A DNA stretch of 64,000 nucleotides, from the NCBI GenBank assembly GCA_040388535.1, contig JAZKBR010000009.1:69736-133735 (forward strand). The letters are read 5' to 3'. A program made the translations under genes and the position numbers. The notes beneath the pieces are model-generated. The model ran no database searches. It saw nothing but the letters and a program-made list of their open reading frames with translations, and had not been told where the DNA came from. Shown here one piece after another: positions 11,423-24,993 of the stretch; the stretch's first letter is position 1, and every line of letters starts with the position of its first letter. The stretch is from Gemmatimonadota bacterium. Lineage in GTDB: Bacteria; Gemmatimonadota; Gemmatimonadetes; Gemmatimonadales; GWC2-71-9.

Positions 11423-12417
11423 ACCTCTGCGTCCTGGTTGAAAGTACCGAGCGGCTCGACCGCTTCCTCGCCGATCAATTGCAGATGTCGCGGACCGTCG
11501 CGGCCCGCCTGGTGGCCGACAAGGCCGTCACGGTCAACGCCGTGGTCGCGCGCGCTTCGCGGCTGATGCAGCGCGGCGATCTGGTTGAAGTCACCTTTCC
11601 GGAAAACGAAGCGCCGCGCACCTTCACGCCCAATCCGATCGGGCTCACCGTCGTCTACGAAGACGACGATCTCGCGGTTATCGATAAGCCCGCGGGGCTG
11701 GTCGTTCATCCTGCTCCCGGTCACTGGGACGACACGCTCGTCAATGCGCTTGTGGCGCGTGGCACCACGCTCGCCGGCGGCGCTGAAGGCCGGCCAGGGA
11801 TCGTGCACCGACTCGACCGTGAGACGAGTGGTCTCATCATTGTGTCGAAGACCGAGCTCGCCCATCGTCGCCTCGGCGCGATGATCGCGGCACGCAAGGT
11901 GGCCCGGGTCTATGCCGCGCTCATCTGGGGCCACCTGGACGAGCCGAAGATCACCATCGATGCGCCGCTCGGGCGCTCGCCGCGCGACCGCAAGCGGATG
12001 GCGATTCTCCCCGATGGTCGCCCGGCCAAGACGGACGCTTTCGGGATTGCGCATCTCGGACCGGTCGAGGTGGTTCGCCTCGAGCTCCACACCGGTCGGA
12101 CCCACCAGATACGCGTCCACCTCGAATCGATTGGTCACCCCATTGTCGGTGATCCGGTTTATGCCGGCGGTGGCTGGAAGCGCATTTCCGGGGTCGGGCG
12201 GGCCCAGGCCAGGCACCTCGATTCGCTGGCTCCCCGGCAGGCACTTCACGCCGCGCTTCTGGCGTTCCGCCATCCCATAAGCGGGGAGCCGATCCGCCTG
12301 ACCTCTCCCTGGCCGGTCGATCTCTGGCCGTTGCTGGAGACGGCCGCCGGGCCAGGGGTGTTGCCGTCGCGGGAGGAAGCACTCACTGCCATCGGTTTCG
12401 AGACCCAGCATGGCTGA
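11419..12417 (+). CDS. rluD: RluA-family 23S rRNA pseudouridine synthase
   Basis: This 332-residue protein has an N-terminal S4 RNA-binding domain (about 10-60) and the RluA-type catalytic domain with VIDKPAGLVVHP and the active-site block HRLDRETSGL, whose Asp133 is the catalytic residue. TGRTHQIRVHL is the third family block. RluD-type enzymes modify helix 69 of 23S rRNA; the choice of RluD over RluC is by length, S4 domain and position after lspA, a common gene order. The TTG start makes a TTGA overlap with lspA. The last eight bases overlap cheW. Confidence 0.9.
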   Translation: MNLCVLVESTERLDRFLADQLQMSRTVAARLVADKAVTVNAVVARASRLMQRGDLVEVTFPENEAPRTFTPNPIGLTVVYEDDDLAVIDKPAGLVVHPAPGHWDDTLVNALVARGTTLAGGAEGRPGIVHRLDRETSGLIIVSKTELAHRRLGAMIAARKVARVYAALIWGHLDEPKITIDAPLGRSPRDRKRMAILPDGRPAKTDAFGIAHLGPVEVVRLELHTGRTHQIRVHLESIGHPIVGDPVYAGGGWKRISGVGRAQARHLDSLAPRQALHAALLAFRHPISGEPIRLTSPWPVDLWPLLETAAGPGVLPSREEALTAIGFETQHG

Positions 12418-12772
12418 GGAGCTCCCGGCCGTTGCCGGACTGGTGGTCCGGGTGGCAGGGGTCCGCTGGTTCATTCCGGTCGCGGGAGTCGTGGAGGTCT
12501 TGCGGGATGCCCTGATCATCCGCGTCCCTGGTGCGGTGCCGGCCGTGCGCGGGATGGTGAACCACCGGGGCCGGATCATCACGGTGGCGGACCCGGTCCG
12601 GTCGCTCGATCTTCCGGGAGATGCGGGTGGGGCGGGGGAACTCGTCGTGGTCGAAGCGGAAGGCCGCCGCTTTGCCCTGGCCGTCGATGGTGTCGTGGAA
12701 CTGAACGCCGAGCCGCGCACGGGGCTTGCAACATTGGATCTGATTCAGGTCGCCCACGCGATCTTTGCCTGA
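12410..12772 (+). CDS. cheW: CheW-like coupling protein
   Basis: This is a single CheW domain of 120 residues: VVRVAGVRWFIPVAGVVEVL, then VRGMVNHRGRIITVADPV, then the C-terminal strand VDGVVELN. CheW normally links the histidine kinase CheA to chemoreceptors in a cytoplasmic array. No receptor gene is present in the window, so its partner here may be encoded elsewhere or may be one of the unusual neighbours. It begins inside the end of rluD and is the first gene of the chemosensory and GTPase run that goes on to 24064. Confidence 0.9.
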   Translation: MAEELPAVAGLVVRVAGVRWFIPVAGVVEVLRDALIIRVPGAVPAVRGMVNHRGRIITVADPVRSLDLPGDAGGAGELVVVEAEGRRFALAVDGVVELNAEPRTGLATLDLIQVAHAIFA

Positions 12773-12792: not shown

Positions 12793-13158
12793 ATGGCCCA
12801 GCGGATTCTGATTTGTGACGATGCCATCTTCATGCGCACCATGATCGCCGACATCCTGACCGGGGCCGGCTACGAGATTGCTGGCGAAGCCGAGAGCGGT
12901 TTGCAGGCCGTTGAACGCTACAAGGCGCTCAAGCCTGACCTCGTCACGATGGACATCGTGATGCCCGATATGGGCGGCATCGACGCGGTCCGCGCCATCT
13001 GCACCAGCGACCCGAGCGCGAAGATCCTGATGTGCAGCGCGATGGGGCAGCAGGCGCTGGTGGTCGAAGCAGTGCAGGCAGGCGCCAAGGATTTCGTGGT
13101 GAAGCCGTTCCAGCCGGCCCGGGTACTCGAAGCCGTCAAGCGCGTCCTCGAGGGATGA
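12793..13158 (+). CDS. cheY: CheY-like single-domain response regulator
   Basis: A stand-alone receiver domain of 121 residues. The acidic pair is Asp9-Asp10, the phosphoacceptor is Asp54 in VTMDIVMPDM, Ser82 is the switch serine and Lys104 the conserved lysine in VVKPF. There is no output domain, so it signals by binding a partner, probably after phosphorylation by the adjacent CheA. A good ribosome binding site, cggagg, lies about eight bases before the ATG. The stop overlaps the cheA ATG by four bases. Confidence 0.95.
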   Translation: MAQRILICDDAIFMRTMIADILTGAGYEIAGEAESGLQAVERYKALKPDLVTMDIVMPDMGGIDAVRAICTSDPSAKILMCSAMGQQALVVEAVQAGAKDFVVKPFQPARVLEAVKRVLEG

Positions 13159-14657
13159 CCGACGCGCGGCGGGCGCGCTACGTCGCGCTCTTCGCGGCCG
13201 AAGCCCGCTCGATGCTCGGCGGGGCACGGCGCACGATGTCGGCGTGGTTCGACACGCCGACCGACACCAGCCACGCCGAAGAAGTGTTCCGCGTGTTGCA
13301 CACCATCAAGGGAATGGCCGCCTCGCTGGATTTCACGGCGGTGTCCGACCTCACCCACACCACCGAGTCCTCACTGGCCACGGTGCGCGAGGGCGTACGG
13401 ATTCCCGACCGCAGCTGGCTGCGTGAGCTCGAGCGCGGCCTCGACGATATCGCAGCGGCGTGCGAGCGCGCGGTGGTGGGTGAGGGCGGGGAAGCGGTGG
13501 TCGGGATCAACGCTCCGGCGGCGCCGCGCATTGTCCGCGTCGATATCGACCGACTCGATGCGCTCTTCAGCGACCTCGGCGGGCTGGTCACGGCGCGGCA
13601 GGACCTGGAGCGCCACGCCTCGGCCGACGCGCTTTCCCCGGTGGCGCGTGCCGCCTCGGTGATGGCGCATCGACTCGACAATCTGCAGGACCGGATTCTT
13701 CACGTTCGCCTGGCACCGCTCACCGAAGTCTTCGAGCGGCTGCCGCCACAGATCCGGGACCTCGCGCGTCAGCTGGGCAAGGAAGTGACGGTCGAAGTGT
13801 CGGGTGAAGGGCTCGAGGTCGACCGGGCCGTCCTCGACCAGCTGCCTGAACCACTGATGCATCTGATTCGCAACGCGCTCGATCATGGCGTCGAAACGCC
13901 GGACGAGCGTCGGGCCGCCGGCAAACGCCCGACTGGACGGCTCACCGTGCGAGCCCGGCGTGATCGCGATGCGGTGGTGGTGGAGCTGACGGACGACGGT
14001 CGCGGGATCGATCGGGAGAAGGTGGCCGCGAAGGCCCGCAGCCAGGGTATTCTCGAAGAAGGGTCGACGCTGTCCGATGATGGATTGTTGGCGGTACTGG
14101 CCCGGTCGGGCTTCTCCACCGCCACTGCCGTCACCGAAGTCTCGGGGCGCGGAGTCGGACTCGACGTGGTGGTGTCCCGATTGCACGAAATCGGCGCGGC
14201 CCTCTCGTTGACGACCGTGGCGGGGAAGGGCACCGTCTTCACGCTGCGGCTGCCGATGCGACTCGGCATCGTTCGGGCGCTGGTGACCGGCATCGGGGAG
14301 GAGCGGTACGTGATGCCGTTGACGCATGTGGCGGAGCTGATTGCCTGGGACCCGGGAGCGATTCGGCAGGTCGATGGCCGCTCGGTGATCGAGCACGATG
14401 GCGACACGATTCCGGTGGTCGATCTGCGCCGACTGCTGTTGTATCGGGGCGAGGTCGCACCGGGGCGCCGGCCGGCGGTGGTTTTCGAGGCGAACGGGCA
14501 GCGTGTCGCACTCCTCGCCGATGCGGTGCTCGGACAGGTCGATGCGGTGGTGCAGCCGCTTGAGCGACCGAAGGGGATGCCACGCTGGATTACGGGCGCC
14601 GCGGTGCTCGACAATGGCAGGCCAGCGTTACTCCTCGATCTGGCCAGTGTTGTGTAG
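13155..14657 (+). CDS. cheA: Chemotaxis-type histidine kinase CheA without P2 domain
   Basis: This is a CheA of 500 residues. The Hpt domain (1 to about 105) has the phosphorylation site VLHTIKGMAASL at His49. The dimerisation domain starts near residue 122 (RIVRVDIDRLDALF), followed by the ATPase with HLIRNALDHGVETPDER, DDGRGID and GRGVGLDVV, and a C-terminal CheW-like domain. Only about 15 residues join Hpt and dimerisation domains, so the P2 domain that docks CheY and CheB in E. coli is missing; E. coli CheA has 654 residues. I chose ATG 13155, which overlaps the cheY stop; the frame continues upstream only as shadow. After the stop comes an 89-base spacer with an inverted repeat. Confidence 0.95.
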   Translation: MTDARRARYVALFAAEARSMLGGARRTMSAWFDTPTDTSHAEEVFRVLHTIKGMAASLDFTAVSDLTHTTESSLATVREGVRIPDRSWLRELERGLDDIAAACERAVVGEGGEAVVGINAPAAPRIVRVDIDRLDALFSDLGGLVTARQDLERHASADALSPVARAASVMAHRLDNLQDRILHVRLAPLTEVFERLPPQIRDLARQLGKEVTVEVSGEGLEVDRAVLDQLPEPLMHLIRNALDHGVETPDERRAAGKRPTGRLTVRARRDRDAVVVELTDDGRGIDREKVAAKARSQGILEEGSTLSDDGLLAVLARSGFSTATAVTEVSGRGVGLDVVVSRLHEIGAALSLTTVAGKGTVFTLRLPMRLGIVRALVTGIGEERYVMPLTHVAELIAWDPGAIRQVDGRSVIEHDGDTIPVVDLRRLLLYRGEVAPGRRPAVVFEANGQRVALLADAVLGQVDAVVQPLERPKGMPRWITGAAVLDNGRPALLLDLASVV

Positions 14658-14723: not shown

Positions 14724-14746
14724 TCTTTCTTCAGCCTGGAGTTGGT

Positions 14747-15367
14747 ATGGCTTCGTCGGATGATATCGAAACGCTGCGGCGCGACGGATTGCGCGAAGTC
14801 GCCACGATTGGCGCAGGGCACGCCGCGACGGCGCTCTCGCAGCTGACCGATCGCCGGATCATGATCTCGGTGCCACAGGTGCGTCGCGTCAACTACGGCG
14901 AAGTCCCCCAGATGCTGGCGACCTTCGGCGATCACGTCGCCGTCGTGTCGATGCGGATGCTCGGGGATCTGACCGGCCGGGCGCTCCTGACATTCGGCGA
15001 GCAAGATGCCACCCGGCTCTGCGATCTGATTCTTCGCCGACCGGTAGGCCCGCCGCGCGCGCTCGGCGAGCTGGAGCAGTCCGGCCTCAAGGAGGTCGGC
15101 AACATCGTCTGTTCGGCCTATCTCACCGCACTGAGCAACTTCATGGGGATGATGCTCCTGCCATCGGTGCCATCGCTCACGGTCGGGCCGACCGCGCTTG
15201 CCATCGCGTCCACGGTCGACCCCAACGAGAGCGTCAGTGACCTCCTCTTCTGTGTCGATACCGCCTTCCGTGCCGAGGGCAACGAGAATCCCTTGACCGG
15301 GGCATTCCTGTTGATGCCCGACCACGCCTCGATCAAGGCGATTCTCGAGGCAATCCGGCTCGACTAG
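14747..15367 (+). CDS. cheC: CheC-type CheY-P phosphatase
   Basis: CheC dephosphorylates CheY-P in chemosensory systems. The 206-residue product has the two pseudo-symmetric halves of the family. The second active-site helix, SGLKEVGNIVCSAYL, keeps the S-x3-E-x2-N pattern. The first, DGLREVATIGAGHAA, has Thr where Asn is expected, so probably only one site works. I chose ATG 14747, which follows a cctggag ribosome binding site; an earlier in-frame ATG at 14699 lies in the repeat spacer and adds unconserved residues. It is separated from cheA by the spacer and ends one base before the next gene. Confidence 0.88.
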   Translation: MASSDDIETLRRDGLREVATIGAGHAATALSQLTDRRIMISVPQVRRVNYGEVPQMLATFGDHVAVVSMRMLGDLTGRALLTFGEQDATRLCDLILRRPVGPPRALGELEQSGLKEVGNIVCSAYLTALSNFMGMMLLPSVPSLTVGPTALAIASTVDPNESVSDLLFCVDTAFRAEGNENPLTGAFLLMPDHASIKAILEAIRLD

Positions 15368-15368
15368 C

Positions 15369-16511
15369 ATGACGGCGCCCCGACCGCGCGACGCCACGAT
15401 CGTCGCTGCGCTGGTGCAACGCCTCGGTGCCGCCGATGCGGCGACGCTGACCAACCTCGCGTGGTTCGCGGCACGGCGCGGCGCGATGACGATCGCTCTC
15501 GACGCCGTGCGGCATGCTGTGACGCTTCCCGGGGCGCCGCGCGCGGCATGGCGAACGCTCGAGCGCCTCGCCGTGGGTCGCACCGACCAGCTGCTGCTGG
15601 CGCTCCCCTCAGGCCATCCCTCGAACCAGAATGCTCACAGCGTAACCCATCCGCTCGCGGCTGCGGTCGCGGCGCACTCGCAGGGCGCGTTTGCGGTGGC
15701 GGAGGCGTGCTACTGGGCTGCCACCAGCGACGGCGCCGACGCCCCTGCCGCGTGGAACGGACTCGCCGTGCTGCACGAGGAACGGGGTGAACGTGCCGCG
15801 GCCGACGAAGCGTGGGGCCAGGTGGCGCATGCACCGGCCATCGCGACCATTCACGACCGGGCCCTCTCCTGGCACCGACGCGGCGAGACTCTGGGCGCAC
15901 GTGCCCTGCTTCGTGATGCGCTCGCCGCCTTTCCAGGTGCTGCTCCGCTGCTTTATCTCGCCGGCTATCTGGCGTACCTGGGTGGCGAGGCCGCTGCCTC
16001 CGTGCCGTTGCTGACGGCCGCGGTCGCCGTTGAGCCGGCGATGGCCCGCGCCCATTTCACGCTGGGCCTCGCACACGAACGCCTCGGCGCGCACACCCTT
16101 GCGGTGGAAGCGACGCGACGAGGGTTGCAGTGCTCGCCGTGGTTCGTCCCGGAAGTGTGGCTGCTCGAGAACGGCCGGCGCGGCGAACTACTCGAGGTTG
16201 CCCCGGAGCGGTCTGCCGGCACTGCTGCCGCCACCGATGAAGTGTTGCTCGCCCTCGGCCGCTCGCTGCTTGAAACGCTGCACCTCGGCGAGGCGCTCGC
16301 CGTCTTCGATCAGGTGCTCGTGCGTCAACCTGCGCACACGGCGGCGCTCTTCCATCGCGGTGTCGTGCTCGCCAAGCTCCGCCGCTACTCCGATGCACTC
16401 GCGGATTGGGAGGCCGTCGGACGGGCTGACGGCGAGAGTGTCCTCGGGGCGATGAGCAAGCGCCACGCACGTTCGGCGCGCGAACTCGCGACCCTGTTCT
16501 CGGGAAGCTAG
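15369..16511 (+). CDS. TPR-repeat protein of the chemosensory/GTPase run
   Basis: This 380-residue protein has no signal peptide and is built of helical TPR-like repeats, clearest from about 120 to 360 (for example APLLYLAGYLAYLGGEAAAS and AALFHRGVVLAKLRRYSDAL). TPR arrays bind other proteins, so a scaffold role is likely. The N-terminal 110 residues are helical and alanine-rich with no domain I recognise. It starts one base after the cheC stop and is followed six bases later by a DUF4388 gene. The function is not known; the position suggests that it works with the CheA or MglA components. Confidence 0.8.
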   Translation: MTAPRPRDATIVAALVQRLGAADAATLTNLAWFAARRGAMTIALDAVRHAVTLPGAPRAAWRTLERLAVGRTDQLLLALPSGHPSNQNAHSVTHPLAAAVAAHSQGAFAVAEACYWAATSDGADAPAAWNGLAVLHEERGERAAADEAWGQVAHAPAIATIHDRALSWHRRGETLGARALLRDALAAFPGAAPLLYLAGYLAYLGGEAAASVPLLTAAVAVEPAMARAHFTLGLAHERLGAHTLAVEATRRGLQCSPWFVPEVWLLENGRRGELLEVAPERSAGTAAATDEVLLALGRSLLETLHLGEALAVFDQVLVRQPAHTAALFHRGVVLAKLRRYSDALADWEAVGRADGESVLGAMSKRHARSARELATLFSGS

Positions 16512-16517
16512 GGCGCG

Positions 16518-17441
16518 ATGCACGGACCGTTGAGTGAAATTTCTCTCGTGGAAGTGCTGCAGCTGCTGCAGCGTGGCCAGCGGAGCGGTACGTTGCGGGT
16601 CACCGGCCCCGATCCGACGGCACCGCGCACGCTCTGGCTGCTCGATGGTGTTGTCGTGGCACTCGAGCCGGAAGCGAGCGATGCAGCGGTCGATGAGGGG
16701 TTGATCGCCCGAGCGCTTGCGAGCAACGATCCGGAAGATGGTCCGGCGACGGTTGCACCCTCGGTGCGCGATGCCCTGCGCTCTCGACTCGCGAGTGCGG
16801 CGCTCGGTGCAATGCTGCACTGGTCTCGCGGGCGTTTCGATTTCACCGAGGGCCCGGTACCGCCGGGGCCACTGAATGTGTCGCCCGATGCGCTGGTGCT
16901 CGACGTGGTAGAGTCCGAGATGCGTCGCGTGGACCTCGCCGGCGAGCTGGACGAATTCCGCGCGGTGCCCGCCTTTGCGCCGGCAGACCAGCTCGCAGCT
17001 GGCGAACTCCCCACCCTCGACCCGCTTGACTGGCGCCTGCTGGATGCCGTCGACGGCATCCGCAACGTCGCGGCCCTCGCCGCCGCCCTCGACGAGCCGC
17101 TTGATGCCGTGGCCGCTCGCGTTCGGGCGATGCAGGGCGCCGCTATACTTCAACTCGCCGCTGCGCCGGCCGATGTCTCGCTGGAGGCACGTGCTGCCAT
17201 CGAGGCAGGGCGGTATGATGACGCCGCGCAGTTGCTGCGCGCGCGGGTCGAGGCCGTCCCTGGCGATGGGGAGGCGTGGCGGACCCTCGGCCTCGCTGAG
17301 GTGGGGGCGGGAAGGTTCGATCGCGCCATCGGCGCGTGGGAGGCGTGGCGTGCGGCAGATCCGACCCGGGCCGACGAGGCTGCGTCGCTGACCCGCGCCG
17401 CCCAGACTATGGTGGAGGCGCTTCGCGACAGCCGTGACTGA
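16518..17441 (+). CDS. DUF4388 domain protein with C-terminal TPR segment
   Basis: Residues 1 to about 140 form a DUF4388 (PATAN-like) domain: the start LSEISLVEVLQLLQRGQRSGTL is typical, with the LWLLDGVVVALE strand and a later GRFDFTEG. PATAN domains occur in signalling proteins such as PatA and are thought to mediate protein contacts. The middle (about 170-215) looks like a winged-helix-type segment, and residues 225-290 contain a TPR pair. The product has 307 residues and is cytoplasmic. It overlaps the next gene by eight bases. A second DUF4388-TPR protein lies at 21609-23231, so two proteins of this rare architecture flank the GTPase genes. Confidence 0.82.
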   Translation: MHGPLSEISLVEVLQLLQRGQRSGTLRVTGPDPTAPRTLWLLDGVVVALEPEASDAAVDEGLIARALASNDPEDGPATVAPSVRDALRSRLASAALGAMLHWSRGRFDFTEGPVPPGPLNVSPDALVLDVVESEMRRVDLAGELDEFRAVPAFAPADQLAAGELPTLDPLDWRLLDAVDGIRNVAALAAALDEPLDAVAARVRAMQGAAILQLAAAPADVSLEARAAIEAGRYDDAAQLLRARVEAVPGDGEAWRTLGLAEVGAGRFDRAIGAWEAWRAADPTRADEAASLTRAAQTMVEALRDSRD

Positions 17442-18183
17442 TTCGACTCCGAGACTTCCCAGCACCACGCAGGGCCTCGCCTTTCTCGATCTCGGCGAGC
17501 GCCTGCGTCAGCGCGGCCAACTCGAAGCTGCCGCGACGGTGGCCATGGCCGGACTTGCTCGGTACCCGGCACTGGCGGATGCGCACGACCTGCTGGCGCG
17601 AATCCGCGCCGACCAGGGGGAGGATGCGCCAGCGATCAGCTCCTGGCACGCCGCGCTTGAAATCGAGCCCGCTCATGTCGGCGCGCTCAAGGGCCTGGCG
17701 TTCATCGCCTTCCGGGCCCGGGATATGGTCACGGCCGAGCGCCACCTCGAAGCCGCCGCCATGCAATCGCCGCACGATAGCACCATCATCGCAGCGCTCG
17801 ACCGCGTTCGTTCGGCAACCCCAGGGCCGTCGGCCGAGACGTTCCGTCTCGACGAACTCGGTAGTGGGCTTCTCCTCTTCGATGCGCAGGGAATGCGACT
17901 CACCGGTGGTGTCGGCCCTGGCACTGGCGAACCCGAGGCGGATGCCGCAGCAGCCGAGGCCTCCGGGCTGGCGCGGGAAGCAATCCGCGCGACGCGATTT
18001 CTCGGACTTGGGGCCTGGCAGCATCTGGTCCTTGAAGGTGCCGACGCACGCGTGGCGCTGGTGAGCATTGATGCGGATGCGACGCTGCTGGTGCGCCGCT
18101 CCGCCACCACGCCTCCCGGCCGGCTGCTCGCCTCGACTGCGCGCGCGGCTGATGCGGCCCGCGAATGGCTGGGCCACTCCTGA
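17434..18183 (+). CDS. TPR protein with roadblock-like C-terminal domain
   Basis: The 249-residue product starts at GTG inside the DUF4388 gene. Residues 10-125 carry about three TPR units (AFLDLGERLRQRGQLEAAAT; ALKGLAFIAFRARDMVTAER). After a linker, residues 165-248 have the alternating strand and helix pattern of a roadblock/LC7 domain: LGAWQHLVLEGADARVALVS, then a long last helix. Roadblock domains bind small GTPases of the MglA type and act as activators or adaptors. The roadblock part is weak by eye and is supported mainly by the two clear roadblock genes that follow. Confidence 0.7.
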   Translation: MTDSTPRLPSTTQGLAFLDLGERLRQRGQLEAAATVAMAGLARYPALADAHDLLARIRADQGEDAPAISSWHAALEIEPAHVGALKGLAFIAFRARDMVTAERHLEAAAMQSPHDSTIIAALDRVRSATPGPSAETFRLDELGSGLLLFDAQGMRLTGGVGPGTGEPEADAAAAEASGLAREAIRATRFLGLGAWQHLVLEGADARVALVSIDADATLLVRRSATTPPGRLLASTARAADAAREWLGHS

Positions 18184-18536
18184 TGAGCATTCCACGCTGG
18201 GAAGGGATGTTGCGTGAGATCACCGGCATCGTCGGGGTGCGCGGCGCGCTGATCGTCTCCTCGGATGACGGGCTCGTGGTCGCGGAGTCGGCGATGGACG
18301 GCCTCGAGACGACCGACGTGGCGGCGTTTGCCGCATCAGTCATTTCTCGCGCTCAGCGTACCGCACGCGCGATGCATTGTGCGCCGCCAACTCGGGTACA
18401 CATCACCGCCGAATCGGGCACCCTCTTCGCGGTGGCCGGTGCCGACCCGCTCTGGCTCGTGGCGGTAACCGACACCACCGTTGAGCTCGGTCGCCTTCGC
18501 CTCCTCCTCGGTGATCTGGCCGTGGTGCTGACCTGA
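18183..18536 (+). CDS. Roadblock/LC7 domain protein (MglB-like)
   Basis: This is a single roadblock domain of 117 residues. MLREITGIVGVRGALIVSSDDGLVVAE is the classic first helix and strand pair, followed by a central helix (ETTDVAAFAASVISRAQRT) and strands through VAVTDTTVELGRLRLLL. MglB, the best known member, is the GTPase-activating protein for MglA in polarity control of Myxococcus and Thermus. I chose ATG 18183, which overlaps the previous stop by one base, over an upstream in-frame ATG at 18165. The direct neighbourhood of an MglA-like gene supports a GTPase partner role. Confidence 0.85.
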   Translation: MSIPRWEGMLREITGIVGVRGALIVSSDDGLVVAESAMDGLETTDVAAFAASVISRAQRTARAMHCAPPTRVHITAESGTLFAVAGADPLWLVAVTDTTVELGRLRLLLGDLAVVLT

Positions 18537-19003
18537 TGCGCGTATTGGAGCCGTGGGTGGCAGACCCGCTCGCCGAATTCCTGCGCGAATCATCGGCGCG
18601 ACTCGCGCTGGTGATGACCAGCTCGGGGCAGGTGATCGCGCAGCACGGCTTCACGCGCTCACTCGACGTGATGGCAGCCGCTGCGCTGGGCGCCGGCATT
18701 CTCGCGACTACCGGTGAACTCGCCAACGTCGTCGGAGCCGAGCACGGGTTCGGGGTCATCGTGCATCAGGGGCAGGCGCAAGGCGTCTGGCTGGCGGGCT
18801 TCGATACTCCCCGTGGTCGCTGGATCGGGCTGGTGGTATTTGGTCGCGAATCGTCGGTCGGCCTAGTGCGACTCTTTTTCACGCGGTTCACCGAGCGTCT
18901 TGTCGCCGCGGCCCCGGTCACGGTGCCGGTGCGCGAAGTGCTCGCTGAGGGGTTCGAACGCGAACTCGACGAGTCGCTTCGCGCGCTCTTCGGGCGGAAC
19001 TGA
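18536..19003 (+). CDS. Second roadblock/LC7-type protein
   Basis: A 155-residue protein in which residues 15-125 fit a roadblock fold: ARLALVMTSSGQVIAQHGFT, a helix LDVMAAAALGAGILATTGEL and the strand pair GVWLAGFDTPRGRWIGLVVFG. A C-terminal helical tail of about 30 residues (VREVLAEGFERELDESLRALF) is longer than in MglB. Some family members form heterodimers, so this protein and the one at 18183 could pair; that is inference. The start and stop overlap those of its neighbours by one base each, and the next gene is the GTPase. Confidence 0.8.
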   Translation: MRVLEPWVADPLAEFLRESSARLALVMTSSGQVIAQHGFTRSLDVMAAAALGAGILATTGELANVVGAEHGFGVIVHQGQAQGVWLAGFDTPRGRWIGLVVFGRESSVGLVRLFFTRFTERLVAAAPVTVPVREVLAEGFERELDESLRALFGRN

Positions 19004-19602
19004 TGGCGCGCATCGTGGTTGACCGCCAGGAAATCACCGCCACGCTGGTCGTCTTCGGTGCAGCGCGCGTCGGCAAGAGCTCCATCCTGCGCTGTGTCCA
19101 GGATCGCGTGGCGCCGGCACGAATCGGCGAGCGATTTCCGCTCGGCTCGCCGCCATCGGGTGTGCCGCTGCTCGACTGGCTTCCGCTCGATCTCGGCCGC
19201 ATTTCCGGCTGGCAGGCACGAGTCAACTTGTATGGCGTCCCGGCCGAACGGCACGCCGACGCCACCCGACGACTCGTCCTCTCCGACGCCGACGGCATTC
19301 TCTTCGTGGTGGACAGCCAGGCGGCACGCCTCAACGAGAATGTCGACGCGTTGCGTGCGCTCGAGGGGCAGCTGCTCGATCGGGAAGGTGACTTCCGCGA
19401 TGTCCCGCTCGTCCTGCTCTATAACAAGCAAGACCTGCCGGCCGAGATGATCCTGACACCAGATGCGCTCGGTGAAGCGCTGAACTTCCGTGATGCACCG
19501 AGCTACGCCTGCGATGCGCTGCGTGGCGTGGGCGTTCTTGAAGCACTGCACACCGGAGTCACCCGGATGATGCGACGGATCGCACCGTCGCGTGCCGGGT
19601 AG
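19003..19602 (+). CDS. mglA: MglA-like small Ras-type GTPase
   Basis: A 199-residue GTPase of the MglA group. The P-loop is GAARVGKS at 19-26, and the base-recognition motif NKQD is at 141-144. The MglA-type block LDWLPLDLGRISGW precedes switch II, which reads YGVPAERHADATRRLVL. As in MglA, there is no Asp in the G3 motif. The catalytic Gln of MglA (TVPGQ, Gln82) corresponds to Glu82 here, and the preceding Gly is Ala, so hydrolysis may differ. MglA controls cell polarity and motility. Here it sits between roadblock genes and a tandem AAA+ gene, which suggests an MglA-type switch tied to the chemosensory proteins. Confidence 0.88.
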   Translation: MARIVVDRQEITATLVVFGAARVGKSSILRCVQDRVAPARIGERFPLGSPPSGVPLLDWLPLDLGRISGWQARVNLYGVPAERHADATRRLVLSDADGILFVVDSQAARLNENVDALRALEGQLLDREGDFRDVPLVLLYNKQDLPAEMILTPDALGEALNFRDAPSYACDALRGVGVLEALHTGVTRMMRRIAPSRAG

Positions 19603-19608
19603 CCGCCG

Positions 19609-21609
19609 ATGCTGAATCCCAATTCCCGATTTGCCTCGTTCGTCGTCGGGTCGTCCAACCGGCTCGCGGCCACGGCCGCCAAGGCGGTGGCCGAGGCCCC
19701 GGGCGCGGCCTATAACCCGCTCTGGTTCTATGCCCGGCCCGGGCTGGGCAAGACGCACCTGTTGATGGCAATCGGTCACGAGGCGCAGGCGATCGATCCG
19801 TCGCGCACGGTCGAGTATGTCACGGTCGATGACTTCGTCGAGGCGTACCACGCCGCGCTTGCTGCCGGACAGGCTGAGGCGTACCGCCGCCGCTTCACCG
19901 AGGCCGATCTGGTCCTCCTGGATGATGCGCAGTTGCTTACCGACCAGCGTGAACTGCAGAGCGAGCTCCTCCGTCTGATCGATGTGCTGATGGCAGGTGA
20001 CCGGCAGATCGTGCTGGCCGGCGATCGGCCACCGGAAGAGATCCAGTCGCTCGATGAACGCCTGATCCGTCGCTTCTCGGGTGGTCTCGTCATCGACATC
20101 GGCGCCCCCGATTACGAAACGCGACTGGCGATCCTCTCGCGCCGCGCGCAGGAGCGGCACGTCGGCTTCAGCACCGAGGTGCTCTCTGCCGTGGCGGAGT
20201 TGCCAATCACGACCGTGCGAGAGCTCCTCGGCGCGCTCAATCGGCTGATCGCCCAGCAGGCAGTCCAGAGCTCGCAGCTGAGTGCCGCAGAAGCACGGCA
20301 GCTGTTGGCCGGGCTCGGCCACGTCAAGGCAGAAGAGCCACCGTCGCCCGCCGAGTTGCTGTCGTCAGACGCAGGCTTCTCGCCGGCGAGTGCGGCCGAA
20401 GTGCGCACTGAATTGCCGGCGGTCACGGCGGCCGGCGGCGACGAGTTCTCGGATTTTCTTTCGGATCTCTCGGCGGCGGTCTCGCATCAGGTCGATCGCT
20501 GGCGTCAGCGAGTCACCGAGGCCTCGTTGCGCTATGTGGGCGAGGGGTTCCGGAACACCCGGCTCGAGTCCCTGCTCGCCGGCGAGATGGGAAGCGATCC
20601 CGAGGTCGCCCTCGAGGAGTTCGAGCGCGACGTCGAGGCGCTCCGCGCCTTGCAGCGCGAACTGAGAGAGCTCGCGCCATCGCTCCTCGGTGCGGGAGCG
20701 TTACACGACCCGGATCGGCTCGCCGAAGCTGAAACCCTGGTAGCCGAAGCGCGCGAGGCGGGTGAACCTCTGCCTGGCCCGATGGCGCGCTACACGCTCG
20801 AACTCTTTGGCGAGGGGCCCAGCACGCGCTCGGTCGTGGAGGCGATGCGCACGGCCGCTGGTGCACCGGGGCAGCGCTATAACCCACTGGTGATCGTCGG
20901 GCCGGCGGGCACCGGCAAGACGCATCTCCTGCATGCCTTCGGGCACGCCCTCCGCGCATCGGGGCTTGGTCGCGTTGCCGTGTTCGATGCCCAGCAGTTC
21001 GTGGATGGGCTCGTGGCCGCCCTTGGTGACGGCACAATCGCGCGGTGGCGGCAGCGTCTCCGTCGCGTCGACGCGCTGCTACTGGACGATGTCGGTGTCT
21101 TCGCCGGCAAGGAGCGCAGTCAGGAAGAGTTGTATCTCCTCTACAACCTGTTGCTCGAGTCCGGGCGCCAGATGGCGTTCACGGCGAGTGCGCCACCTGG
21201 GCAGCTCGAGGGCTTCGAGCCGCGGCTGGCGACACGACTCGCCGGCGGGATCGTTCTCGAACTCGGGCCCCCCGATCGCGAAGCCAAGCTGCACGAGGTT
21301 GCCCGACTGCTCGGCACGGCGGCCGAGGATGGTGACCTGGTCGAGTATCTCGCGGCACGCCCCGCTGCTTCGCTGCGCGACGTGCAACAGTTGCTGCAGC
21401 GCCTCACGGCCGCGGCCGAGGAACGGCACGCGACCCTCACGCTGGCCCTCGCTCGCACGTTGCTCGAGGGGTCGCCGGTGGATGGACCGCGACCACCGCG
21501 ACGTGGCAACGGACTCATGGCGCCTGGGAGTGGCGCGGTTCGTTCGCGCGAGAAGATGGTCGAGATCTGGCCCGATATTGCCGAGCGCCTGCTTGAGGAA
21601 TGGCGCTGA
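19609..21609 (+). CDS. Protein with two tandem DnaA-type AAA+ domains
   Basis: This 666-residue protein carries two DnaA/Hda-like ATPase domains. The first has NPLWFYARPGLGKTHLL (Walker A 42-49, with Ala in place of the first Gly), LVLLDDAQLL (Asp105-106) and DERLIRRFSGGL, which matches the DnaA box with the arginine finger. The second has YNPLVIVGPAGTGKTHLLH (Walker A 431-438), ALLLDDVG (Asp493-494) and PRLATRLAGGI. A linker of about 180 residues, partly coiled coil near 325-395, joins them. The DNA-binding domain IV of DnaA is absent, so it is not the replication initiator. It starts six bases after the MglA gene and overlaps the DUF4388 gene. I infer an ATPase acting on this module. Confidence 0.85.
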   Translation: MLNPNSRFASFVVGSSNRLAATAAKAVAEAPGAAYNPLWFYARPGLGKTHLLMAIGHEAQAIDPSRTVEYVTVDDFVEAYHAALAAGQAEAYRRRFTEADLVLLDDAQLLTDQRELQSELLRLIDVLMAGDRQIVLAGDRPPEEIQSLDERLIRRFSGGLVIDIGAPDYETRLAILSRRAQERHVGFSTEVLSAVAELPITTVRELLGALNRLIAQQAVQSSQLSAAEARQLLAGLGHVKAEEPPSPAELLSSDAGFSPASAAEVRTELPAVTAAGGDEFSDFLSDLSAAVSHQVDRWRQRVTEASLRYVGEGFRNTRLESLLAGEMGSDPEVALEEFERDVEALRALQRELRELAPSLLGAGALHDPDRLAEAETLVAEAREAGEPLPGPMARYTLELFGEGPSTRSVVEAMRTAAGAPGQRYNPLVIVGPAGTGKTHLLHAFGHALRASGLGRVAVFDAQQFVDGLVAALGDGTIARWRQRLRRVDALLLDDVGVFAGKERSQEELYLLYNLLLESGRQMAFTASAPPGQLEGFEPRLATRLAGGIVLELGPPDREAKLHEVARLLGTAAEDGDLVEYLAARPAASLRDVQQLLQRLTAAAEERHATLTLALARTLLEGSPVDGPRPPRRGNGLMAPGSGAVRSREKMVEIWPDIAERLLEEWR

Positions 21610-23231
21610 TGGCAATCAAGGGCTCGCTCAAGGAGGCCTCGCTCCCCGATGTGGTGCAGTTGCTCTATCTCGGCCGCCGCACCGGTTGCCTGTCCGTCGC
21701 CAACGATCGCAACTTCGCGTCGATCTGGCTCGACGACGGCTGGATCGTTTTTGCCGGCATGGTCTCGCGTCCCGACCGACTCGGCGAGCGACTGGTGGCC
21801 GCGGGGAAACTCACGTCGGAGCAACTCGAATCGGCGGTCGCGACGCAGGCGTCGTTGCCCGGTCATCGGCTCGGCGCCGTGCTGGTCCAGCTGAACTACC
21901 TCAGCAACGCCGAGCTCGAAGGCGAGTTGCGCCGTCAGGTTGAGGAGACGGTGTACACGCTCTTCACCTGGGCCAGTGGCACCTTCTCGTTCGAAGCCGG
22001 CATCTCGCCTGATGATGCCGAAGGAACGGTGCGACTCAATCCCGAGGGCCTGCTGCTCGAAGGTGCGCGTCGCGTCGATGAATGGAGTGTGATCGCCAAG
22101 AAGATTCCTTCGCTTGATGCGGTCTTCGCGCTCGAGGGCGAGGGAGATATCGACCTCAAGGGCGACGCCACGCTTGTCGACATCGAGCGCCGGGTCCAGC
22201 CGCTGATCGACGGTGCGCGAACGGTACGCGAAATCATGGAAGCCACCGGCCTCACCGATTTCGAAGTCTGCCGCGCACTGTTCGGCCTGACGACGGCGGG
22301 GCGCCTGCGCCGGGTGGCAACGGCGGCGCCAGTCGTACCTCGGCAGGGAAATGCGCGGCTCGAAGAGCACCGCAATCTTGGTGTAGCGTTCTACCGCACC
22401 GGGATGCTCACCGAGGCCGAGCGCGAGTTCAAGCGGGTCGCCGAACTGCGCCCCGGCGATGGCGAGCCATCGTTTCAGCTCGGCCTGATCGCCTTGCGAC
22501 AGGCCCGGTGGTCCGATGCGCTCGACCAGTTCCAGCGTGCCATCGAGCGCGCCGGACCACGGCCGGCGTTGTTGCACAATCTTGCGCTTGCCCTGGAATC
22601 GCTCGGCCGGGTTGACGAAGCGGATGCTGCGCTTGCCGATGCCGTCCAGCTCGATCGCGACGATCCGCGTCTCTGGACTGGCTGGGGACTGCTCGCGCTT
22701 CGTCGGAGTGAGCCTGCGAAGGCCCTCGAACGCTTCGCGCGGGCCCGTGACCTCCTTGGGTCGCGCCGGGCCCCCGCACACTGGTACTGGGGTTGTGGCT
22801 GGGCTCAGGCGCTTTCCGAGGCGTGGCAGGACGCGCTGGCCACCATTCGCGATGGCGTTACCGCTTATCCCGACCACCCAGTGCTGCGGACGACGCTCGG
22901 CGTGCTGCTCGAAGGGACGGGCGAAGTAGGTGAGGCGGAGGCGCACCTGCGCCATGCACTCGGTGAAGATCCGACGATTCCGCAGATTTCCAAGAATCTC
23001 GGCGACCTCCTCTACCGTGCCGGGCGCTGGGATGAGGCAGAGGAGTCGTACGAGCGTGCCGCGAAGCTCGCACCATCGCTCGGCGATGACCTCTATTTCA
23101 AGCTCGGCAACCTCGCCTGTCGTCGCGGCGACATGAGTACCGCGCGAGGCCACTGGGCGGCGGCACTCGCGCTCAATCCTGAGCATGCCCTGGTCCGCGC
23201 GAATCTTGCCGGCTCCGGTGCGGCGTCGTGA
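21609..23231 (+). CDS. DUF4388 domain protein with TPR array
   Basis: Residues 1 to about 150 are a DUF4388 (PATAN-like) domain: MAIKGSLKEASLPDVVQLL, RTGCLSVAN, the strand IWLDDGWIVFAGM and GTFSFEAG. Residues 190-245 look like a winged helix (LIDGARTVREIMEATGL). From about 255 to 535 there are about eight TPR units (for example LGVAFYRTGMLTEAEREFKR). ATG 21609 overlaps the preceding stop (TGATG) with a gaggaa site upstream; ATG 21600 is nine bases earlier and equally in frame. The product has 540 residues and no signal peptide. It is the larger relative of the protein at 16518. Confidence 0.84.
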   Translation: MAIKGSLKEASLPDVVQLLYLGRRTGCLSVANDRNFASIWLDDGWIVFAGMVSRPDRLGERLVAAGKLTSEQLESAVATQASLPGHRLGAVLVQLNYLSNAELEGELRRQVEETVYTLFTWASGTFSFEAGISPDDAEGTVRLNPEGLLLEGARRVDEWSVIAKKIPSLDAVFALEGEGDIDLKGDATLVDIERRVQPLIDGARTVREIMEATGLTDFEVCRALFGLTTAGRLRRVATAAPVVPRQGNARLEEHRNLGVAFYRTGMLTEAEREFKRVAELRPGDGEPSFQLGLIALRQARWSDALDQFQRAIERAGPRPALLHNLALALESLGRVDEADAALADAVQLDRDDPRLWTGWGLLALRRSEPAKALERFARARDLLGSRRAPAHWYWGCGWAQALSEAWQDALATIRDGVTAYPDHPVLRTTLGVLLEGTGEVGEAEAHLRHALGEDPTIPQISKNLGDLLYRAGRWDEAEESYERAAKLAPSLGDDLYFKLGNLACRRGDMSTARGHWAAALALNPEHALVRANLAGSGAAS

Positions 23232-24064
23232 GTCCCGATCTGCTGGGCCCGATGCGCGCGGAATACCAGCGTCTCAACGAGCGGCTCGCCACGCCGATGG
23301 CGCCGCCAGAACGCGATGCTGTCCGCGCAGCGATCATCGCCCTCTTCAAGGAGGCCGACGGGCTGCTCACGGAGGTTGCCGCGTTCAAGGAATCGATTCG
23401 CGCACTGGTCGATGGCTTCAAGTCGCTGCCGGTGGATGCTCCCGCGACGATCCGTTACGACCATATCGGCGCCTCCACTTCCATGGAGCGTGGCTGGAGT
23501 GACCTTGCCGGGGCGCGCTGGGTCAACGCAGAGGGACATTTCCGCGAGGCCGTCGCCCGAGACCCTGGCAGCACTGATGCCCAGGCATTGCTCGGTTGGT
23601 CGTTGATGCATCAGCAGCGCCACGACGAAGCACTGCAGTACTGCCTCCAGGTCCTGATGCGGGAAACGGAGCACGGGCTCGCGCGCGTCGCGCTGGGTGT
23701 CATCTGCCTGCGGAAGGGGATTACTGGCGAGGCGATGGAACATCTCTCGCGCGTTGCGGGACGTCCCGGGGATGCCCGGGCAATTCTCTACGCCAATTAC
23801 TGGCTCGGGGTCGCCTACATCGAGCGGGAGATGGACACCGACGCGGTGGAACTGCTCCGGCGCGCGGTGGCACTGGGGCCGAACCTCGCCGAGGGGTGGG
23901 CCGACCTCGGGCGGGCGCTCTGGTTTCGCGGCGAACCAGATTCCGCCCGCGCGGCCTGGGCGACCGGAGCGGCCGTTCGGCACTCGCCGTTCTCGGAGCG
24001 AAGCGCCACTCTGCTGGAGGTCACCAAGGCCGGAGGAGTGCCACCACGTTCCGCCTTTCGCTGA
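23228..24064 (+). CDS. TPR protein ending the chemosensory/GTPase run
   Basis: This 278-residue soluble protein starts at GTG in a GTGA overlap with the DUF4388-TPR gene. Residues 1-75 form a helical, possibly coiled-coil segment (RDAVRAAIIALFKEADGLL). Residues 85-265 hold about five TPR units (DAQALLGWSLMHQQRHDEAL; YANYWLGVAYIEREMDTDAV; EGWADLGRALWFRGEPDSAR). No catalytic motif is visible. Its position suggests that it serves with the upstream TPR proteins as scaffold. The peptidase gene that overlaps its stop is unlike the rest of the run and may be a separate function. Confidence 0.78.
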   Translation: MSPDLLGPMRAEYQRLNERLATPMAPPERDAVRAAIIALFKEADGLLTEVAAFKESIRALVDGFKSLPVDAPATIRYDHIGASTSMERGWSDLAGARWVNAEGHFREAVARDPGSTDAQALLGWSLMHQQRHDEALQYCLQVLMRETEHGLARVALGVICLRKGITGEAMEHLSRVAGRPGDARAILYANYWLGVAYIEREMDTDAVELLRRAVALGPNLAEGWADLGRALWFRGEPDSARAAWATGAAVRHSPFSERSATLLEVTKAGGVPPRSAFR

Positions 24065-24993
24065 GCCTGCTCCTGGCGCTCCAGAGCCAGGCGCCCCAGC
24101 TGGCGGGGCCGCCGATGCCCGAGCTGCGCATCGAAGTCGGGGATGTCACCGTACTGGTGGACCGGAAGCACGCGGCGCTGGGGACCGAACTTGGCGAGGC
24201 GGCGGGGCGGGTTCGCGACTGGTTCGGGCTGGGTCGACTCGACCTCGGTGAACTCGTCCTGGTGGTGGTGGCGGACACTGGCGCATTTGGTGGCTGGTCC
24301 CGGGGCCGCGTCCCGGCGTGGGGAGCCGGCCTGACACTGCCCGGCAGCCGCCTGGTCGTGGTGCGGGTCGATGCCGGCGACCCGCTAGGGACCCTCTGGC
24401 ACGAACTGGCGCACGTCGCGCTCCACCAGCAGGTCCGGGGTCGGGTGCCGCTCTGGTTCGACGAGGGTTACGCCGTCCTGGCAGCCGGGGAGTATGGTCG
24501 GCTCGCCGGCCTCCAGCTGAACCTTTCGGTGGCATCCGGGCGGGTGCCGACGCTACGGGCGCTTGACGGGGCCCTCCGCGGCAGCAGCGGCGACGCCGAG
24601 GAAGGGTACGCGCTGGCAGGCTCGGCCGTGTCCTACCTCGCCCGCCGGCACCCCAGCGGCTCCCTGGTGCCGCTGATGGAGCGGCTCAAGGCCGGAATGC
24701 CGTTCGACGAGGCGGTCCTGGCCACCACCGGGCTGAGCGAAGATCGCTTCGACGAGGCGTGGCACCGCGAGGTCCGCAAGCGCTACAACTGGCTCATCTG
24801 GCTCGCGACCGGTGGGGCCTGGCTGATTGTGACATTGTTGCTGGGCTGGGCTGCAGCCTGGCGGCGACATCGAGATGCACCACGCCGTGCCGCCCTGAAC
24901 GAGGGATGGGTGATCGAGGAGCCAGATAACGAGGAGATTACAACTGCCGAACAGGCGCCCAATCGGCTTGACCGAGGGGACTCTGGCGGCTAG
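24061..24993 (+). CDS. Membrane-anchored gluzincin peptidase (peptidase MA-like)
   Basis: The zinc site HELAH with the downstream glutamate in LWFDEGYAVLA marks a gluzincin metallopeptidase of the MA-like group. A membrane helix near the C-terminus (LIWLATGGAWLIVTLLLGWAAAW) is followed by a charged tail. The N-terminus FRLSLSLLLALQSQA looks like a signal peptide, so the catalytic domain should lie outside the cytoplasm. No ATG, GTG or TTG precedes it in frame nearby; the first ATG is 24115, inside the mature part. I put the start at CTG 24061 (CTGA overlap), giving 310 residues. A ggaggag site at 24032-24038 would better fit ACG 24046. The start is uncertain; the substrate is unknown. Confidence 0.8.
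   Translation: MSLLLALQSQAPQLAGPPMPELRIEVGDVTVLVDRKHAALGTELGEAAGRVRDWFGLGRLDLGELVLVVVADTGAFGGWSRGRVPAWGAGLTLPGSRLVVVRVDAGDPLGTLWHELAHVALHQQVRGRVPLWFDEGYAVLAAGEYGRLAGLQLNLSVASGRVPTLRALDGALRGSSGDAEEGYALAGSAVSYLARRHPSGSLVPLMERLKAGMPFDEAVLATTGLSEDRFDEAWHREVRKRYNWLIWLATGGAWLIVTLLLGWAAAWRRHRDAPRRAALNEGWVIEEPDNEEITTAEQAPNRLDRGDSGG

Follow-up and report, generated by a model that had tools for sequence, protein, structure and literature searches.

The DnaA clade of AAA+ ATPases is regarded as a replication machine, which includes the initiator, Hda and the helicase loaders. In E. coli, DnaA assembles head-to-tail, and Arg285 of one protomer contacts the ATP bound by the adjacent protomer (PMC5742627). 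In Myxococcus, type IV pili are activated and controlled by MglA (PMC7519303, PMC7668184), and PATAN regulators of the cyanobacterium Synechocystis are reported, in work cited in PMC9090330, to bind the pilus motor PilB. The presence of MglA genes near PATAN genes has been noted earlier (PMC4316618). A literature search for DnaA joined with MglA, roadblock proteins, Gemmatimonadetes, PATAN or type IV pili found no description of such a combination.

The window, which is the whole stretch of 64,000 nucleotides that was analysed, stems from a Gemmatimonadota bacterium and carries a gene for a protein with two DnaA-type AAA+ domains, D1 and D2, within a chemosensory and GTPase operon (Table 1). 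A first-pass annotation of this DNA had proposed two DnaA-family domains fused in one protein, and this reading is borne out: both halves lie above the curated cut-off of the Pfam family Bac_DnaA (PF00308, 23 bits) with 161.5 bits (E 4e-47) for D1 and 130.1 bits (E 2e-37) for D2, and the closest solved relatives of both are DnaA structures (8bv3, 8btg, 1l8q, 2z4r), with Hda far behind. The NPL...GKTH, LLDD and box VII arginine motifs on which it had relied are present in both halves. A family search with each domain separately, suggested at the same time, gave higher scores for DnaA (TIGR00362) than for Hda, namely 245 versus 82 bits for D1 and 157 versus 88 bits for D2. It had been considered that D2 might prove to be another AAA+ clade or that the Walker sites might be dead in all relatives; neither was found, and a different clade for D2 is ruled out by PF00308, the scores for TIGR00362 versus Hda and the tree described below.

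Table 1. Coordinates of the tandem gene, its features and the neighbouring operon genes in the window.
Feature	Position	Strand	Remarks
CheW-like	12410..12772	+	PF01584
CheY-like	12793..13158	+	
CheA-like (start inferred)	13155..14657	+	PF01627/02518/01584
CheC-like phosphatase (start inferred)	14744..15367	+	PF04509, NF041093
TPR protein	15369..16511	+	
DUF4388 (PATAN)-TPR protein	16518..17441	+	PF14332
TPR-roadblock protein	17434..18183	+	PF03259
Roadblock protein	18165..18536	+	PF03259
MglB-like roadblock protein	18536..19003	+	NF052242 below cut-off; weak PF03259
MglA-like small GTPase	19003..19602	+	PF00025; TIGR00231 below cut-off
Tandem DnaA-type AAA+ gene	19609..21609	+	ATG start, 666 aa
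D1, DnaA-clade AAA+ (residues 1-235)	19609..20313	+	PF00308; TIGR00362 245 bits
D1 Walker A ARPGLGKT (42-49)	19732..19755	+	Lys48 in 77/77 orthologs
D1 Walker B LLDD (103-106)	19915..19926	+	both Asp in 77/77
D1 box VII R151...R155 (E. coli R281/R285)	20059..20073	+	
D1 sensor-2 R204 (E. coli R334)	20218..20220	+	
Disordered stretch (239-278)	20323..20442	+	pLDDT mostly <50
Helical linker domain (279-384)	20443..20760	+	family-conserved, without known relative
D2, second DnaA-clade AAA+ (about 396-625)	20794..21483	+	PF00308 130 bits; TIGR00362 157 bits
D2 Walker A GPAGTGKT (431-438)	20899..20922	+	intact in window protein, lost in 14/77
D2 W-R-x-R motif (480-483)	21046..21057	+	invariant in ATPase-dead D2
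D2 Walker B LLDD (491-494)	21079..21090	+	
D2 box VII R539...R543, putative trans arginine finger	21223..21237	+	75/77; 14/14 in dead D2
C-terminal tail REKMVEIWPDIAERLLEEWR (residues 646-666)	21544..21606	+	persists after loss of D2 and linker
PATAN + MshEN-like (c-di-GMP) insertion + TPR	21609..23231	+	PF14332; NF053729 48.1 bits
TPR protein, conserved operon member	23228..24064	+	

Outside the AAA+ domains, Pfam detected neither DnaA_N (domain I) nor domain IV nor any other domain, in line with the earlier statement that the protein lacks the DNA-binding part. The ORF begins directly at the AAA+ domain, leaving no room for an N-terminal domain I. The genome contains exactly three Bac_DnaA matches, namely D1, D2 and a canonical DnaA of 463 amino acids encoded elsewhere (G000:C2), so that the tandem protein is not the initiator of this genome. 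The NCBIfam Hda equivalog is missed as well (164 bits for both domains together, cut-off 194.8). A regular expression for an Hda-type β-clamp-binding motif gave a single loose match, at a non-matching site, within residues 235-410 of 77 orthologs.

The interdomain region comprises around 160 amino acids and not the roughly 180 that were first estimated; it is largely helical, as stated then, between residues 279 and 384 (pLDDT 90), and disordered between residues 239 and 278. Searches of Pfam (23 members), PDB profiles and Foldseek for a known domain in the linker returned only coiled-coil-like noise, and neither the PDB profile search nor Foldseek provided a PDB match. The predicted D1 fold matches domain III of B. 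subtilis DnaA (8bv3) with a target-normalised TM score of 0.93 and 40% identity. The arrangement of D1 and D2 in the AF2 model of the full protein is unusable (pTM 0.46). The C-terminal tail looks like a docking peptide and persists more than any other feature except D1. Among the compared loci, its motif (EK-VW-WPD...R-IEE) was detected at the C terminus of proteins of this family and nowhere else.

In most relatives, the gene order is RluD-CheW-CheY-CheA-CheC-TPR-PATAN-TPR/roadblock-roadblock-MglB-MglA-tandem-PATAN/TPR-(receiver protein)-TPR-peptidase, and the genes of the window operon nearly abut from CheC onward. The operon end is occupied by a conserved Peptidase_MA_2 protein (24115-24993) with an apparent C-terminal hydrophobic segment. 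The window operon is preceded by ileS-lspA-rluD and followed by rsmH-ftsI (27224 on), which represents a cell-division neighbourhood. In the genomes of one clade, f5, only a roadblock gene upstream and a PATAN-TPR gene downstream adjoin the tandem gene, and neither CheA nor MglA was found adjoining it; in four f5 loci (L092, L094, L112, L117), the gene lies downstream of genes for a DivIVA-like protein, ileS, lspA, rluD and a roadblock protein. The operon does not require the tandem protein, since three loci (L150, L153, L154) keep MglA or MglB without a gene for D1 or D2.

A search of 200 genomes of the phylum found full-length relatives in several families of the Gemmatimonadota. When the GTDB species set was scanned, they appeared in this phylum only, although the patterns used were taken from the window protein and could miss distant relatives in other phyla. 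About half of the sampled phylum genomes lack the tandem protein, and many of those have DnaA alone. The linker domain was absent from 299 genomes of one other phylum, and four marginal matches (21-22 bits) among 398 genomes of a second phylum were taken as chance coiled coil. An unrooted tree separates D1, D2 and canonical DnaA into three groups, with support values of 100/97 for D2 and 100/99 for the joint group of D1 and the D2-less proteins. As D1 and D2 each form a well-separated group, the tandem is old and inherited and not a recent fusion, and since dozens of genomes share this architecture, a fusion by chance or by misassembly is ruled out. An origin of D2 by internal duplication of D1 was also considered; the three-group tree fits a copy of D1 and a separate origin from DnaA alike. 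In one MAG contig (L051:1593-4234), D1 and D2 are split between two overlapping frames, probably due to an assembly indel.

D2-less forms are present in four groups, which are f9 (L103-L105, 392 aa), g33 (L145, L146), f6 (L147, L148) and g34 (L149, 283 aa), the last of which has also lost the linker. On the phylogeny of the adjacent PATAN-TPR protein, the D2-less state requires four changes, three of which are forced by supported branches, and the D1 sequences of f9 nest within the tandem D1 sequences in the AAA+ tree; the D2-less forms are therefore the result of losses, of which there were at least three. These proteins keep D1 and, mostly, the C-terminal tail. In g33, f6 and g34, the box VII arginines of D1 decay partly or fully, and Walker A stays. 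In L146 (4146-5666, minus strand), a low-complexity stretch rich in VVAPVV/VVSPVV is found in the place of D2, between the linker domain and the tail.

The two domains are conserved in different ways across the ortholog set of 77 distinct tandem sequences. The Walker A lysine and both Walker B aspartates of D1 are invariant in this set, and its own box VII arginines are kept in 72-74 of the 77. The position of the first Walker A glycine of D1 is occupied by Ser, Ala or Gly (35, 23 and 19 sequences, respectively); the alanine seen in the window protein had been pointed out before and is indeed there, but this variation speaks against its use as a mark of inactivity. The ATP site of D2, i.e., the Walker A lysine and the Walker B aspartates, has been lost in 14 genomes, which all belong to f5 and hence represent a single event. 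Among the columns that are conserved in intact D2, those at 431-439 and 493-494, which cover Walker A, the next histidine and Walker B, show the ancestral residue in 0-36% of these 14 genomes, while R539, R543, W480, R481, R483, Q505, E507 and G547-V549 are kept in 100% and R503 in 93%. A dead D2 that keeps its arginine-finger face is the pattern expected if this face serves another ATP site, and D1 would be the obvious recipient. The asymmetric ATP sites fit the proposal in the first-pass annotation of one active and one regulatory site; however, the built-in dimer that it envisaged is not an invariant core, since D2 is dispensable and D1 persists together with the C-terminal tail. The H/B residues with which DnaA binds ssDNA are replaced in D1, with a change of V211 to His in 19 of 37 and of R245 to Glu in 31 of 37 sequences, so that D1 is unlikely to bind ssDNA in the manner of DnaA. 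D2, including the ATPase-dead form, mostly keeps Ile or Val at V211 and Arg at R245 and may either bind ssDNA or use this face for protein contacts.

The stop codon of the tandem gene overlaps the start codon of the PATAN-MshEN-TPR gene (TGATG). The protein encoded by the latter (21609-23231) is a candidate c-di-GMP receptor; a helical insertion in its PATAN domain matches the MshE-related c-di-GMP-binding model NF053729 with 48.1 bits (cut-off 38), and the corresponding insertion in L155 matches the MshEN model below the cut-off. Five loci (L150-L154) contain Che/roadblock/PATAN operons, whole or partial and some with MglA, in which the DnaA-like gene is absent. The MshEN-like insertion measures 5 amino acids in all five of them versus around 58 nearly everywhere else, and these operons form one clade (SH-aLRT 99), so that the co-loss falls on one stem branch and counts as a single event. 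The shortest insertion elsewhere, of 34 amino acids in L018, is probably a fragment. Because the insertion shrinks where the DnaA-like gene is missing, the PATAN-MshEN-TPR protein is the best candidate for a partner. MglA and the roadblock proteins are plausible partners too, but the specific comparative signal favours PATAN-MshEN-TPR.

In a set of 61 genomes, PATAN proteins occur in 33 of 33 genomes with the linker domain versus 6 of 28 others, and the former encode more PilT-family copies (median 4 versus 1, mean 3.7 versus 1.5), although both associations are confounded by ancestry. Joint absence was nevertheless seen in scattered genomes (G015, G027, G028) within one and the same family and order, suggesting that co-loss happened more than once. 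In the genome of the window, four PilT-family proteins exceed the cut-off, and seven chemoreceptors are encoded. The likeliest output of the system would be the control of pili or polarity.

The preferred reading, to which we assign a probability of about 0.5, is that a DnaA-clade AAA+ nucleotide switch has left replication and serves the Che/roadblock/MglA/PATAN operon, most likely in the control of type IV pili or surface polarity. D1 is proposed to bind and hydrolyse ATP, and D2 would pack head-to-tail on D1 like neighbouring DnaA protomers, so that D2 would act as a built-in Hda or GAP whose box VII arginines R539 and R543 reach the ATP of D1. The partner contacts of D1, of the helical linker domain and of the WPD tail might then depend on the ATP state; the best guess for this partner is the translationally coupled PATAN-MshEN-TPR protein, and c-di-GMP and MglA/Che signals could be combined before they act on the pilus motor. 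Where D2 has been lost, D1 would function as a simpler switch between ATP-bound and unbound states. More tentatively, it can be imagined that an initiator ATPase was duplicated, fused and rewired, D2 being an attached GAP-like subunit for D1, and that the pair couples PATAN-MshEN c-di-GMP sensing and MglA/Che signals to the pilus machinery. Judged from the sequences, contacts between D1 domains are equally possible, as box VII of D1 is kept.

These D1 arginines, together with the repeated loss of D2 from proteins that retain D1 and the tail, could also mean that D1 is the sole working unit and oligomerises across molecules; D2 would then be a structural or partner-binding remnant whose face contacts another protein and not the ATP of D1. 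This is rather unlikely, since the dead D2 keeps precisely the DnaA-type arginine-finger pair and the surrounding motifs, and since the box VII arginines of D1 decay too in the D2-less groups g33, f6 and g34. Alternatively, an arginine finger of the tandem could act on DnaA-ATP in a RIDA-like manner, which would make the protein an Hda-like replication regulator that ties motility or cell cycle to initiation. A separate Hda is missing from the genome, whose Bac_DnaA matches are confined to DnaA and the tandem, the Hda model covers D2 over its full length, and the gene is located between ileS-lspA-rluD and the rsmH/ftsI cluster. Such a role is improbable nevertheless, given the missed Hda cut-off, the one stray clamp motif among 77 orthologs, the many phylum genomes with DnaA alone and the linkage to PATAN.

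The protein might instead form filaments on DNA or RNA as a nucleic-acid scaffold, in which the H/B residues of D2 hold ssDNA, and their retention even in ATPase-dead D2 would be in accordance with this; the reversed charge of the B motif and the loss of V211 in D1, the missing domain IV and the location in a signalling operon make it distinctly improbable. Weaker matches to IstB/DnaC profiles would speak for a helicase loader or an IstB-type ATPase; this is barely conceivable, as the DnaA profiles win widely for both domains and neither a helicase nor a transposase is encoded nearby.

If the more tentative reading of a rewired initiator ATPase is true, this would be, to our knowledge, the first DnaA-clade AAA+ protein shown to have its role in motility or polarity and not on DNA. 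That the family is deeply conserved in a chemosensory and GTPase operon suggests that signalling systems can take over the DnaA switch. Within a single phylum, relatives have the tandem intact, with a dead D2, reduced to D1 or not at all, a natural series that makes the role of a trans arginine finger directly testable. The Gemmatimonadota thereby gain a candidate module for the control of motility, which appears to be little studied in the literature found. The domain is known, but its architecture and context are new, and the comparative signal is unusually clear.

Among known systems, domain III of DnaA shares with the tandem the AAA+ clade, Walker A and B, the box VII arginines and sensor 2; the tandem differs by two AAA+ domains per chain without domains I, II and IV, by a D1 without the H/B ssDNA residues and by the position of its gene in a signalling operon. 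Hda and HdaA are likewise DnaA-type AAA+ proteins without a DNA-binding domain, and the likeness extends to the working idea of an arginine finger that is given to another DnaA-type ATP site. Hda, however, is a single-domain protein with a clamp-binding peptide, whereas the tandem fuses the donor to its presumed target, and D2 keeps the equivalents of R281 and R285 and scores under the Hda cut-off. The tandem protein thus resembles DnaA and Hda in its proposed trans arginine finger but belongs to neither. The polarity system of Myxococcus xanthus (MglA-MglB-RomR/SgmX/Frz) has a small GTPase, roadblock and TPR proteins and a CheA-type system in common with the operon and acts on type IV pili, but a DnaA-type AAA+ switch is not described for it in the literature searched. 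The cyanobacterial PixE/PixG and PatA systems share PATAN and Che-like components and govern type IV pili without a DnaA-type ATPase; unlike the cyanobacterial regulators, the PATAN protein of the Gemmatimonadota has TPRs in addition to an MshEN-like insertion, and its gene is coupled to that of the tandem.
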